A stretch of 64,000 nucleotides of DNA from Drechmeria coniospora (lineage: Eukaryota; Ascomycota; Sordariomycetes; Hypocreales; Ophiocordycipitaceae): NCBI RefSeq assembly GCF_001625195.1, contig NC_054389.1:5018520-5082519 (forward strand), given 5' to 3'. Of the stretch, positions 2,576 to 62,700 are shown one piece after another. The position numbers and the translations under genes are program-made. Under the pieces are notes generated by a model. That model saw only the letters and a list, made by a program, of their open reading frames with translations, was not told the origin of the DNA and searched no databases. Within the stretch, counting starts at the first letter, position 1. The number at the start of each line of letters is the position of its first letter.

Positions 2576-3604
2576 GCTGGGCAACCTCCTCGGTGGGTTG
2601 ACTGATTGGGAATGAGGAGATGTCGAGGCTACGCGAAGCCGTCACAAGCCAGAGTGCGATGATGGGGCACTGGCTGGGACTCGTGCTGGTGAAGTCGGCA
2701 CGACGACTGTTGGGAGGAATTTTTCTTAATTTCGTGTGTGGACGCTATCCGAGCGTGGAGGGGCTTAGGGAGTGTTGTTGCCGTCACGTGCGGTACATTA
2801 CGTCAGCAACTTGAACTAAAACAGCGCCTCCGAAAGCATCAAGACGAAAGTGAAGCTGGACCTCATACTAGTAAAATACTATACAGGGAAGGGTGAAGGC
2901 AGAACAAGAATATGGCTCGAAAGAAGGGCTCAATGGGATGCAGAACCATCCAGTGCATTTGTTCAACGTCAGGAAGATTTCTTGACAGCATTCTGCACGG
3001 AAGCATACAATAGCCGGTATTCGTGATCATCACCGACCCAAGCTACCCACCCCATCGCTCTCCGATTGCAAGCTACTATCATCATCTACCTGCTGACAAT
3101 GAGGCGGGATGCAATACTTTCTTCATACTGACTTTGACGGCCAGCCATGGCAACTGCAGCAGCCTCGCGTGGACTTGGTATGCATACATGTACTGTACGG
3201 TACTTGGTACAGTGCCTGTACTTGCACACATACGAAGGGACATACTTCAACAATAAAGCAATTACTCCGTACTCGTACTATACAAGTACACCTACTTAAG
3301 AAAGTAGGTGTACAAGTACTTCTAGGTTGAATTCAGTACTCAAATAATACTCCGTAGATGTATTATGGTCATGTTCTTACTCTGAACCGGCGCGCATGAA
3401 CAAGTACTTAAAAATTAGTGTGCAGTGTACTTGTTGTACTTGCAGTATGTACCGTAGTGGGCGGTGGCCATTATGACATGGCTCACGTGATCGCGGGGTT
3501 GAGATGTCAGCTCGATTACGGAGGATCCAAATGCACCCCAACACCGGAACAGCTCGACTCATCTGCCGTCGGGCTGAAATACTTCTTGAACTTGATCAAG
3601 CAAC
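2576..3604. other. Divergent intergenic region between eIF3a and HUB1
   Basis: No coding potential was recognised. The first 250 bp upstream of eIF3a are ordinary, with a short CACGTG-like patch near 2785. From about 3180 to 3480 the sequence switches to a dense field of GTAC-centred words (for example GTACTTGTTGTACTTG near 3427) and contains the 12-bp-arm inverted repeat at 3286-3313. Both flanking genes are transcribed away from here, so both promoters should lie inside. Confidence 0.6.
3286..3313. repeat. Inverted repeat, 12-bp arms, 4-nt loop
   Basis: GTACACCTACTT (3286-3297) is followed by AAGA and then the exact reverse complement AAGTAGGTGTAC (3302-3313). The arms are perfect. It belongs to the GTAC-rich intergenic motif field. 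Confidence 0.9.
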
Positions 3605-4318
3605 ATGTGGGACGACACCCCCAGAAGATCTAGATCGCGATCCCCGCCGCGGCGCGAGCCTCAAAGTAGCAAAGGCTTCAGGTGGAAGGACACTTCTCGC
3701 GGCAAGGGTGGTGGCAATGGTCGACAAGACTCCGGACGGCGTCGAGACTTTCGCGATCGCTCTCCCCACCAGGCCGGCATGCGCCAGAGAGTTGGTGACG
3801 GTGACAGGGACCGCAACCGAGACTCTATAAGAGATAGAGATGGATTCAGAGACGGGGACAGATGGGGCAAGGAAAGGGACAGCAGAGATGGACGCAGAGA
3901 TGGACGCAGAGACGGACGCAGTGACGGACGCAGTGACGGACGCAGTGACGGACGCAGTGACGGACACAGAGAGCGAGTTCCAACCCGGGGCGACGACGTG
4001 GGGTTGAACGACAAAGGCAAAGAAAAGAAAAAAGACAAAAAAGAGAAGAAGCCAACAGCGACGGCGGCGGGCGCAGGCCAGGAGATGATCATCGTTCATG
4101 TCAATGATCGTCTCGGCTCCAAGACTGCTATCCCATGTCTACCATCCGACACCATCGGCCAGTTCAAGCTCATGATTGCGGCCCGTGTCGGTCGAGATGC
4201 GGGACAAATTATGCTTCGCCGTCAGGGCGAGCGGCCGTTCAAAGACCAGCTGACCCTGGAGGACTACGGAGTGTCTAACGGAGTGCAACTCGATCTCGAG
4301 GTTGACACCGGCGACTGA
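3605..4318 (+). CDS. HUB1: HUB1/UBL5-type ubiquitin-like protein with RS/RD-rich N-terminal extension
   Basis: The single-exon protein has 237 residues. The last ~75 (from about residue 160, MIIVHVNDRLGSK to LDLEVDTGD) are the Hub1 ubiquitin fold, with the hallmark NDRLG, the Asp of SDTIG and the FKDQLTLEDYGVSNG block. Hub1 binds HIND motifs of Snu66/Prp38 in the spliceosome and influences splice-site choice; the Asp that aligns with Asp22, the HIND contact in yeast and human Hub1, is kept. Unlike yeast and human Hub1 (about 73 residues), there is a 150-residue N-terminal extension: an RSRSRSPPRR start, FRWKDTSRGKGG, then tandem RDGR/SDGR repeats and a Lys-rich linker. It ends in VDTGD, not the usual YY. 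The ATG at 3605 opens directly into the RS motif. The extension suggests direct targeting to splicing factors (inference). Confidence 0.88.
   Translation: MWDDTPRRSRSRSPPRREPQSSKGFRWKDTSRGKGGGNGRQDSGRRRDFRDRSPHQAGMRQRVGDGDRDRNRDSIRDRDGFRDGDRWGKERDSRDGRRDGRRDGRSDGRSDGRSDGRSDGHRERVPTRGDDVGLNDKGKEKKKDKKEKKPTATAAGAGQEMIIVHVNDRLGSKTAIPCLPSDTIGQFKLMIAARVGRDAGQIMLRRQGERPFKDQLTLEDYGVSNGVQLDLEVDTGD
3883..3966 (+). repeat. 12-bp tandem repeat inside HUB1 coding sequence
   Basis: Units of the form CGCAG(A/T)GA(C/T)GGA encode the four-residue repeats RDGR and SDGR, about seven near-copies in a row. The later units are almost identical at DNA level, so copy number is probably variable between strains. 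Confidence 0.8.
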
Positions 4319-59686: not shown

Positions 59687-59794
59687 GGCACTGGCACTGG
59701 CGATGGCACTGGCGATGGCACTGGCACTGGCACTGGCACTGGCACTGGCACTGGCACTGGCACTGGCACTGGCACTGGCACTGGCACTGGCATT
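59687..59794. repeat. Hexanucleotide array, 18 units of GGCACT and variants
   Basis: Fifteen GGCACT, two GGCGAT (units 3 and 5) and a terminal GGCATT. The length is divisible by three and the unit lacks stops, so several frames stay open across it on both strands (Ala-Leu, Gly-Thr, Trp-His, Pro-Val and Ala-Ser dipeptides). None of these joins recognisable protein. Confidence 0.95.
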
Positions 59795-62700
59795 GGCTTT
59801 GGGCTGCAGCACTCGGCCAAGTTGAGTTAGGCTAGTGCAGATGCCGCCCTTCATCTGTCAAGTTCCAACCAGCCGGCGAAAGCAAAGATGGTGATTGTTT
59901 CCTGCTTGCCGAGAACTAACCTTTGGCTTGTGTTTTTGTTATTTGTTTCCTCCGATGGCCGCTCTTCAATCTGCAACACATGGCGCATTGGGGTGGGAAG
60001 CACAGATGATGTCGTGCCCCCCCAAAGAGCTTGCACCGGTCGGCTTGCATGCCATGCCGTAGCTACCCTCTGCAGCCCTCATGACCATGCAGCCGAAGGT
60101 CTCAAGTCTCTTTCGAGTCTCCCTGCCCCGGTGCCCGCTACCAACCGATACACCCACACCCACATCTTCATCCGCTTCACCCAGGTACGCAGTAGATTGT
60201 GCATAGTACGGAGAATACTGCTCTGCGCAGCATGCAGCGGTAGTGCTTCACGTATTTGGTAAATCGACGGCGCACGAAACGCCAGAGCGGGACCAGGGAG
60301 ACTGAACTCTGCCGATCAGTGTGCTCGAATGCCGTCATATGTACGGAGCATGCATGTCTCCATACATGCCTTGCAGCAACGTAGGACATGCAATCGTGTA
60401 GGTGTAAACGATTGTGAGCGCTTCCTTGCCTCAAACGCACTCGGTACTCGCCGCTAGTCAACTCGAGGGTTTGTTTGGTGTGGGGAGCACGGTTGTCCAA
60501 GCCTGGTTAGGAAGCGATGTCCGTTTTCACTTGTTACCAAGAACATGTAGGTACGAACCGCAGCCAGGTGCTCACTTGCAGTTCGTGTCTGCACCACAGT
60601 ACCGCACGAGGTACGTCTCGGAGCAGGCGAGGGCAGGCAAGAAAATATGGAGAGTCAGTCGAGGGCCAAGCCGCCAAAAGATTGGCGTGCTGATCGCCGT
60701 CAACGGTCATGCAATTTCGTGGAGGGCAGACGGGGGTTTGGCAGGGAACGCGTCTGTCTAGCCAGATACCTAGGCAGGTACTCACTCCTCCATCGTGCTG
60801 GCTGTTGCTTCGGAAGGAGCCCTGTGGCTTCTTTCGCCAGCATGTACACGGTACTTGCGACAAGGGCGAACCGATGCGACAAGGAAGAAAACATCGAGAT
60901 TCGGATGGAGGGTTGTGTCGGGGATGGGGGATGTCAGATCACAAGGGACGCAGGCCAGGTGAAGAAAGGAGGTGCTCGCCGTACAGGTTCAGTGCAGAGT
61001 AGGTGCGCATGTACTTGCTCGAAAGTACATACAAGTATGGTACGAGTTGGAAATGAAGAATAATCAAGCCGTCGTCTCTGTTTGGCTGTTGCAAGCCAGT
61101 CGCAAGCCAGTCTGAAACGGCTGCCAGAGAACTTGAACCAACGACCTCATGCGTCCAGGATCCATGTTTCGCCTGGCAATTTGGATTGCTGCTGCAAGAC
61201 AACCAATCCAACGTGCCAACGTGGTACTGTCAGTTGGAACGCTGGCGTATAGTCGATCATTTGTCTGCTCAAGAAGGCGTGTCAAGATGGACAGTTAGGG
61301 ACAGCCGACACCTGGATATACTGTAGGTGTACGTAGTACCTAGGTACCTTTCCTAGTACGTCAAGTCAGTACCTAATTAAGTACTTGCTTGTATTACTTG
61401 GGTGCAAGTACTGTACGTGAGTACGTAAGTCCAGTATGTAGTTGCATCGCAGTACTTGTAGGCGTCGGTACCTGTACAGAGCACGAGTACAAAACCAGTG
61501 CAAGTGCAGTATGCGCTAAATGCACTAGTCTCCAACTGCCTGATCGTGCTACTTTGAGCACCGTTCTGTACACGTACAGTACTCCGTACGGAGAACCAAC
61601 ACTAAAAGTTCTCACATGTACTTAAATAGTTGTAGAATCACATGGTGGTGGTGCCTGGTCGATTCAGGAACAAGCACAAGCCAGCAATATCTAGCGGACC
61701 CACCGATCCACTAGCAGCTGTGCAGGCGTACTCCGTACTCCATACTCCATACTTAGTATACTTACGTACAATTACAAATTACATGTACAAGTACATGTAC
61801 TATTACGGAGTGTGCATGCGAGTGCGGAGTACGGAGTACAACTACGGAGTACTCGCAATGTACTTGCATGAACAGGGTGCTCGCACTGCCAAGGGCTTAC
61901 CCTAGTGGTATCTTGCCTGTCTTTTTTTCTTGTCAAGGATCTGTCTGTCTCAAGATTGCCCCAGTCAACTAGCTAAGAATAACAAGCCAACCGCGTGCGT
62001 CATCGGTGACTCGCCATCTACAGCAAGTACGTACAGTACGTAAGTATACTTATGTTTGCACATACTTACTCCGTATACTTAGCTACGTTCATGAGCGAGT
62101 AAGTAGTACTTGCTCTGTACTCCGTACTAAGGATGATGTGATTGCCTAATTAAGTTGGAGACGACGAAACTTGAGTACTTGCAAGTACGACTATACCAGT
62201 ATTCGCGGTCGTACCACTCGCCTACCTACGCACGTCCCTAATGCACCTACTCGTACCCCGCCCGTACCCAAGTACGAGTAAGGAGTGTTGCTCCTTGCAC
62301 TCCGTAATCGCAGTAACAATCGAAGTAGGCAGCAGCACCTACACTTACATGTACGTACTTGTACATGCAGGCCTGATAGTGGTCTCGGTGGCTGCTATTT
62401 CACGAAGTCAACCTCCTGGCCTGGTTGTCTGTACATGTACTATAGTGGTACAGACATACGCTTCAGTAACAGTCGCGACACGACTCCGTCTACCAATACT
62501 TACTTGCTACGCATTTACTTTTGCTCCAGCTTGGAACTGTACCTGACGGATAGTTGTACGTACATGTGCTTGTATACGTACAGATAGCTGTACACTGCGA
62601 GTGTACTCCGTCTACTATACTTGCACGGAGTAATACCACCTGCAGACTTGCGTCGAGGCGCAGCAACTAGCCCTTAGCGCACAGCCGTTCGGTGCAGCCC

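Follow-up and report, generated by a model that had tools for sequence, protein, structure and literature searches.

TA-bounded words in the noncoding DNA of Drechmeria coniospora and their possible origin as transposon scars

We analyzed a stretch of 64,000 bp from the ascomycete Drechmeria coniospora (contig NC_054389.1, positions 5,018,520 to 5,082,519; hereafter the window), whose noncoding DNA is filled with short recurring words. These words have the form TA-X-TA, in which a few bases, X, stand between two TA dinucleotides. We regard it as probable, with considerable room for doubt, that the words are insertion scars and most likely footprints of Tc1/mariner-type transposons. Judged from the sequences, transposon footprints explain the words best; this origin has support for two classes of word (CAG/CTG and AG/CT) and is unproven for the others. 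The window was divided into 36,489 bp of noncoding and 25,188 bp of coding DNA using a mask from a codon-usage hidden Markov model (HMM), and expectations were taken from composition models of order 0, order 1, and order 2. Word counts were extended to 15 more loci of 10 kb (44,586 coding bases; loci labelled L0xx), and genome-wide scans covered 32.83 Mb in 28 contigs. The available text of the genome report describes a finished genome of three inferred chromosomes of 12.5, 10.2, and 9.8 Mb (PMC4792172).

A vocabulary of TA-bounded words

The original prediction for this stretch held that GTAC-containing words saturate the noncoding DNA, and this was borne out. GTAC was encountered 524 times in the noncoding part of the window (14.4/kb) and 57 times in the coding part (2.3/kb). 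The tetranucleotide alone is mostly explained by an excess of GTA and TAC (141, 177, and 454 expected under orders 0, 1, and 2), and the signal sits in longer words. The Markov-background count suggested with the prediction placed these longer words far above the order-2 expectation, with lower density in coding DNA. The pair TACGGAGTA/TACTCCGTA occurred 50 times in noncoding DNA (0.3, 0.3, and 0.9 expected under the three orders), TACTTGTA/TACAAGTA 36 times (3.8 under order 2), TACATGTA 29 times (2.1), and CTAGGTA 18 times (2.9), while GGTACC, which was also on the predicted list, was weak (34 vs 23.7 under order 2). None of the first three was found in the coding part of the window, where approximately none are expected, and the zero for TACGGAGTA is not significant by itself. 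In the 15 further loci, TACGGAGTA was counted 69 times in noncoding DNA (2.2 expected) and 0 times in coding DNA, and TACATGTA 31 times (3.3 expected) and once, respectively. Genome-wide, TACGGAGTA has 8,152 + 8,234 = 16,386 sites, compared to 100 + 96 = 196 for the same word written backwards.

The words were claimed to recur in nearly every long noncoding stretch, to be rare in exons, and to thin out beside start codons, and each of these features was recovered. The seven regions given as examples contained 14.8-37.5 dictionary words/kb, and the three gene regions tested contained none. In the first five 100-bp bins beside starts, GTAC stood at 6.5, 8.1, 9.6, 13.1, and 10.0 per kb, followed by 21/kb beyond 500 bp, and the 3'-side bins were all below their 5' partners. 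Beyond 300 bp, the 5' side exceeded the 3' side 2.0-4.8-fold in 11/12 comparisons over six word classes, with CATG beyond 800 bp showing a 1.3-fold excess (both without a significance test). Across 23 tandem intergenic regions, 129 core words were found in upstream halves and 67 in downstream halves. Divergent intergenic regions carried 4.8 core words/kb (2.3-7.1) and convergent ones 1.25 (0.2-2.3); the corresponding GTAC densities were 12.4/kb (6.4-18.4) and 6.7/kb (3.9-9.6), with overlapping intervals. No core word was found in same-strand gaps below 200 bp, a sample of 1,864 bases that mixes introns with HMM gaps and is too small. Word density was also regionally uneven, as L021, L027, and L029 together held only 75 GTAC in 30 kb at normal GC content. 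The loci L013, L014, and L020 contained 0 TACGGAGTA each; these three and L028 are AT-rich (GC 21-38%) with almost no predicted coding DNA.

We next describe the grammar of the words, which was counted as a dictionary of inner sequences anchored by TA on both sides in 126,887 noncoding bases. The words are TA-X-TA units chained via shared TAs, with X being CAG/CTG, CATG, CAAG/CTTG, CGGAG/CTCCG, CCTAG/CTAGG, AG/CT, or GG/CC. Among inner sequences of two nucleotides, AG/CT is the top word (230/653) and CC/GG accounts for 157/653; among those of three, CAG/CTG is the top word (186/414). Inner sequences of four nucleotides include CAAG/CTTG (85/693) and CATG (67/693), and those of five include CCTAG/CTAGG (28/598) and CGGAG/CTCCG (133/598), the most enriched class. 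With AT, CG, or GC as the anchor instead of TA, nothing appeared but a repeat of TTA and traces of these same words. The pattern TAC-N-GTA was enriched chiefly with certain spacers, namely A/T at one nucleotide, AT or AA/TT at two, and GGA/TCC at three (119 vs 2.0). In total, 338 dictionary words were counted in the whole window and 959 in 224 kb, chance matches included.

The GTAC-centred palindrome proposed as the repeated unit needs correction, as TACGGAGTA is not palindromic and TA-X-TA is the better unit. That the words are dispersed and are not copies of a longer repeat agrees with the low information in the flanks of four words: 0.1-0.4 bit at the second base, then values mostly close to 0, apart from small bumps no higher than 0.32 bit at positions that a neighbouring word would occupy. 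Six classes had G-TA..TA-C as their majority flanks, with G at 0.50-0.75 on the left and C at 0.52-0.70 on the right. The idea that the words are carried by a longer repeat, such as an interspersed repeat or a miniature inverted-repeat transposable element (MITE), was rejected because the flanks are unconserved and a 9.7-kb noncoding stretch has no second copy. When positions 54300-64000 were searched against the genome, the stretch itself was the sole match, so that only the words recur. The features of the window are as follows (coordinates within the window).

2576..62640, no strand: word-bearing noncoding stretches; dictionary words in noncoding DNA, 0/kb in each of the three tested gene regions
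5901..5948, no strand: near-perfect 48-bp hairpin built of words, with arms of 22 bp and a 4-nucleotide loop
18910..18945, plus strand: chain of six words via shared TAs, CTTG-CAAG-CTTG-CAAG-CTTG-CC
24125..24153, plus strand: TA-CTCCG-TA-CTCCG-TA (words at 24125 and 24132) with a third TACTCCGTA at 24145
25110..25125, plus strand: two TACGGAGTA with a common TA (25110 and 25117)
27253..27268, no strand: inverted pair with a common TA, TACGGAG-TA-CTCCGTA, a pattern found at 363 places genome-wide
33456..33489, plus strand: chain of seven words via shared TAs, AG-AT-CT-GG-CTG-AT-CTCCG
42193..42228, plus strand: chain of seven words via shared TAs, CATG-AG-AG-AG-CT-CTG-CTCCG
54181..64000, no strand: long noncoding stretch with 120 GTAC

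The longest chains in the window are of seven words. The hairpin at 5901-5948 is possibly a tiny TA-flanked element starting with CTCCG. The window also contains a TTA/TAA microsatellite of 111 bp (44646-44756) and a short tandem repeat with a 6-base unit of GGCACT type (59686-59790). Its genes are ordinary: one matches DHFR, and of nine frames compared with Pfam, six pass the curated cut-off (for example AAA, LRR, PHD-like, ketoacyl synthase, lipoyl, and OPT), while a DSBA match in a seventh falls below it.

Insertions in tandem arrays and the ends of resident elements

Diverged copies within tandem arrays were used as before/after pairs, with a systematic count over 188 array regions that gave 77 insertion/deletion (indel) alleles. 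At the site CTCAGTA^GTATCAACTG in L009, four of seven copies are empty (two of these with T>C in the TA), and the other three carry CAGTA, CTAGGTACCTAGTA, and a related 10-bp insert, respectively. At nearby sites in the same array, CTTA, CCTA, or CTTGAGTA is inserted at TA. A single site in L006 carries CAGTA, CTTA, or nothing, and L002 shows ACAGTA[CTAGGTA]CCTACTG beside ACAGTACCTACTG. At the site GCTGTA^CTGG in L035, CTCCGTA is present in two units 200 bp apart and absent from eight; the two units likely represent one event that was duplicated. The occurrence of different inserts at one site together with empty copies argues for insertion rather than deletion. TA microhomology was found in 13/77 indel alleles, compared to 2.3% for random placement. 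In another count, TA-type alleles made up 9/21 in L009 against 1/40 and 0/7 in the control arrays L017 and L010. The arrays at L009:3284-4137 and L035:2530-3058, whose units differ by word insertions, are natural records of short insertions. As in a transposon footprint, few bases stand between two TAs, and clean insertions relative to an empty site were seen in a few arrays. The idea that the words began as short insertions at TA draws support from these few arrays and from the strict grammar of the many words.

The words also nest in both orientations. Neighbours of the same class in the sample were direct in 41 cases and inverted in 44, with approximately 9.7 expected for each. Microsatellite slippage would give same-class neighbours in direct orientation only and fails as an explanation by itself, although direct pairs may be added by it. 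For CTCCG genome-wide, 1,059 direct matches (TACTCCGTACTCCGTA, with runs counted more than once) compare with 227 + 363 = 590 inverted places. For the decay of TACGGAGTA, 163 neighbours with a single mismatch, about 46 of them background, were counted beside 133 exact copies. The resulting N1/N0 of 0.88 comes close to the value of 1.125 that neutral decay in balance with births would give; decay is thus near neutral, and a weak effect, or constraint acting on some of the copies, may be compatible with it. With 16,386 copies, a neutral steady state would entail roughly 1,500 births of TACGGAGTA for each 1% of divergence.

We then consider the resident elements whose ends match two of the classes. 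L032 contains a Tc1/impala-like element of 1.34 kb that matches DDE_3 and has TA on both sides and end repeats starting CAGT (20/27 alike), and a MITE of approximately 80 bp has the same ends. This MITE had at least 51 matches, two of which were the query's own place (40 of 250 candidates scored), and TA precedes 62 of its 82 exact left ends. Its right end reads ACTG in L036 and ATTG in L018 and L035. CAGT ends predict the footprint TACAGTA/TACTGTA, which is the top three-nucleotide word. A Fot1-like element with a DDE_1 match reads TA-AGTCGG at its ends, where 46 bases counting the TA are identical, and its AGT ends predict TAAGTA/TACTTA, the top two-nucleotide word. The original prediction that the words do not look like a transposon family thus stands in that the words are not repeat copies, and is qualified in that the TA insertions match the ends of two resident Tc1/Fot1-type families.

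Genome-wide, 37 DDE_1 matches were found, of which 31 contain stops, and stops also occur inside 3/6 DDE_3 matches. The six Fot1/pogo-like DDE_1 matches without a stop, four of them in open frames above 440 amino acids, suggest recent activity, and the 37 matches comprise at least two families with different ends. A TA-anchored scan for inverted repeats returned 21 pairs, compared to 4, 6, and 5 for AT, CG, and GC anchors, and these were mostly short and word-built. In addition, a TA-flanked inverted repeat of about 42 bp (39/42) at L018:2353-2538 surrounds one copy of the impala-like MITE, apparently as nested TA-flanked elements. In the sample, neither an inverted-repeat search nor a comparison of flanks turned up an element ending in CTCCG or CGGAG.

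Weighing the origin of the words

A cut-and-paste transposon of the Tc1/mariner kind (Tc1/impala or Fot1/pogo) would enter at TA and duplicate it. On exit, a staggered cut would leave a few terminal bases, which end joining would seal between the TAs as TA-X-TA. X usually has C as its first base and G as its last; an insertion hitting G-TA-C would therefore make two GTAC from one, so that scars would nest in scars. Chains of GTAC at 5-7 bp spacing would accumulate in unconstrained DNA, mostly 5' of genes, and would later decay through point mutation. We infer that excision made the words, that similar, unseen sources gave rise to the remaining classes, and that GTAC multiplied itself in this way. 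In the accessible text of one study, impala tends toward regulatory or noncoding insertion (PMC10992017), a preference that would fit the excess of words on the 5' side.

Several observations weigh against this reading. No source element for CGGAG/CTCCG, CATG, CAAG, CCTAG, or GG was found in the approximately 0.25 Mb sampled. The second DDE_1 family, with ends TA-ACCGTG, should leave AC/GT scars, yet these show no enrichment (24 vs 34.7). A review prints the Sleeping Beauty footprint as TAG(T/A)CTA (PMC2874221), unlike two other reports (PMC4378557; PMC3432063), and CTACGGAGTA is also over-represented in Aspergillus fumigatus Af293, according to the available part of that report (PMC12153272), so that its source would be old and widespread. 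Same-class neighbours are enriched about 4-fold and mixed ones only 2-fold (210 vs 104); independent hits do not predict this excess, which local hopping could give. G before or C after TA already stands at 0.47 over all noncoding TAs, and 694 of 1,521 noncoding GTAC have their TA inside a dictionary word. Outside dictionary words GTAC still reaches 6.8/kb vs 3.9 expected (1.8-fold), so part of the signal lies outside the dictionary.

The array record carries similar cautions. Its 13 TA alleles are clustered, with eight in L009, four in L035, and one in L017. The four from L035 are two duplicate pairs, one of which holds no dictionary word, and the single L017 allele is a long case and not a word. 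A [CTGTA] in L017 that looks inserted is ambiguous, as the adjacent unit also has CATGTACTG. Deletion between short repeats could account for some of the apparent insertions, and the [CAGTA] of L009 could be a tandem duplication. L002 and L006 were chosen because they bear the word, and L035 was chosen because it bears the MITE. Other microhomology of at least two bases was raised as well (21/77 vs 15%).

This last observation also favors templated short insertion during break repair, or replication slippage, in which GTAC or TAC ends anneal elsewhere, copy a few bases, and return with no transposon involved. In 10 of the 13 TA-type array alleles the microhomology is longer than TA (GTAC, TAC, AGTA, GTACT, TACTG, and TATCGA), for several inserts an identical word lies 57-400 bp off within the locus, and the surpluses of direct TACTCCGTACTCCGTA over inverted places genome-wide and of same-class over mixed neighbours point the same way. 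However, the near-equal inverted and direct counts over all classes in the sample are not what slippage gives. There is no other TACTCCGTA within 1.5 kb of the L035 insertion except the array duplicate, TACTTGAGTA occurs just once in L009, and the small set of symmetric X sequences and the two classes matching transposon ends are left unexplained. We therefore consider this origin unlikely, while taking it seriously. The words could instead be dense binding sites kept by selection, with TACGGAGTA/GTACTCCGTAC serving as a site for SomA (Som1/Flo8-type) and the others serving further regulators. The motif GTACTCCGTAC is identical to that of SomA, for which chromatin immunoprecipitation sequencing (ChIP-seq; 119/476) and mutant-probe electrophoretic mobility shift assays are described in the available text (PMC7667024; PMC10900910). 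TACGGAGTA is also among the UvCGBP1 ChIP-seq peak motifs given for Ustilaginoidea virens in the accessible part of its report (PMC8344781), and the words are enriched on the 5' side of genes. Against this stand the 16,386 copies compared to 8,281 genes in the accessible genome report (PMC4792172), the same flanks and similar position profiles of six classes, the 7-bp birth in L035, and the near-neutral one-mismatch cloud of TACGGAGTA, whose ratio does not indicate constraint. That two unrelated factors yield one word may reflect its background abundance. Selection of this kind seems to us improbable as the origin of the words.

Plain composition, repeat-induced point mutation (RIP), or a microsatellite effect is highly improbable. 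GTA and TAC are over-represented and GTAC is merely 1.15x its order-2 expectation in the window, but TACGGAGTA is about 50-fold above its own and is missing from the AT-rich L013, L014, and L020. Exact TACTCCG runs, counted from 9 bases up, are level at 9, 10, and 11 bases (39, 37, and 36) and then drop to 17, 7, and 1 in place of a steady fall. A generic palindrome-forming process was also rejected: hairpins whose arms are no shorter than 8, 9, or 10 bp were 2.6-8x as frequent as in two simulations, but only four hairpins had arms of 13 bp or more and long direct repeats were commoner. Of the three options that the original prediction had left open (binding site, structure element, and mutational or repair signature), the evidence favors the last, as a mutational signature explicable by transposons, with binding possible for one class.

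Beyond the footprint origin, a more speculative proposal, which we hold to be doubtful, is that GTAC is a self-multiplying target spreading as scars and that a TACGGAGTA scar is a ready-made SomA-type site. Excision would then seed regulator sites upstream of genes in filamentous ascomycetes at large, from Drechmeria to Aspergillus, and CGGAG could stem from a TA-cutting enzyme that is unknown or domesticated. In the available text of the literature on SomA, UvCGBP1, and the Starship Tardis, a scar origin for the words is not proposed. If the footprint origin is true, a regulator-type motif would arise by a mutation process, so motif enrichment in these fungi would need a matched background. 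The words would likewise be a record of past transposon excisions with no remaining element, and the scars would be a supply of new regulatory sites.

Comparison with known systems

The resident elements resemble impala, mimp, and Fot1 of Fusarium in their TA flanks, CAGT ends (Tc1-type), AGT ends (Fot1-type), and DDE_3 and DDE_1 domains. They differ in being known from sequence alone, in the many DDE matches with stops, and in the variable right end of the MITE. The footprint of Sleeping Beauty, a Tc1/mariner transposon, is TACAGTA/TACTGTA in the accessible text of two reports (PMC4378557; PMC3432063), which makes it a short TA-flanked insert identical to the CAG/CTG class. Unlike such footprints, those of D. 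coniospora would form a main part of the noncoding vocabulary and fall into several classes, most of them without a known element.

The target of the Starship Tardis, TACGGAGTAG / CTACGGAGTA, has the same core word and ranks above the 99.99th percentile of Af293 k-mers; in the available part of that paper, a transcription factor site is suggested and no insertion origin is proposed (PMC12153272). The SomA motif GTACTCCGTAC of A. fumigatus is the same 11-mer word (PMC7667024, from its accessible text). In D. coniospora, by contrast, this word belongs to one of several TA-X-TA classes, its numbers are far beyond those of a regulon, and it was born by insertion in L035. The binding of a SomA-type factor may be a consequence for one class of the words.

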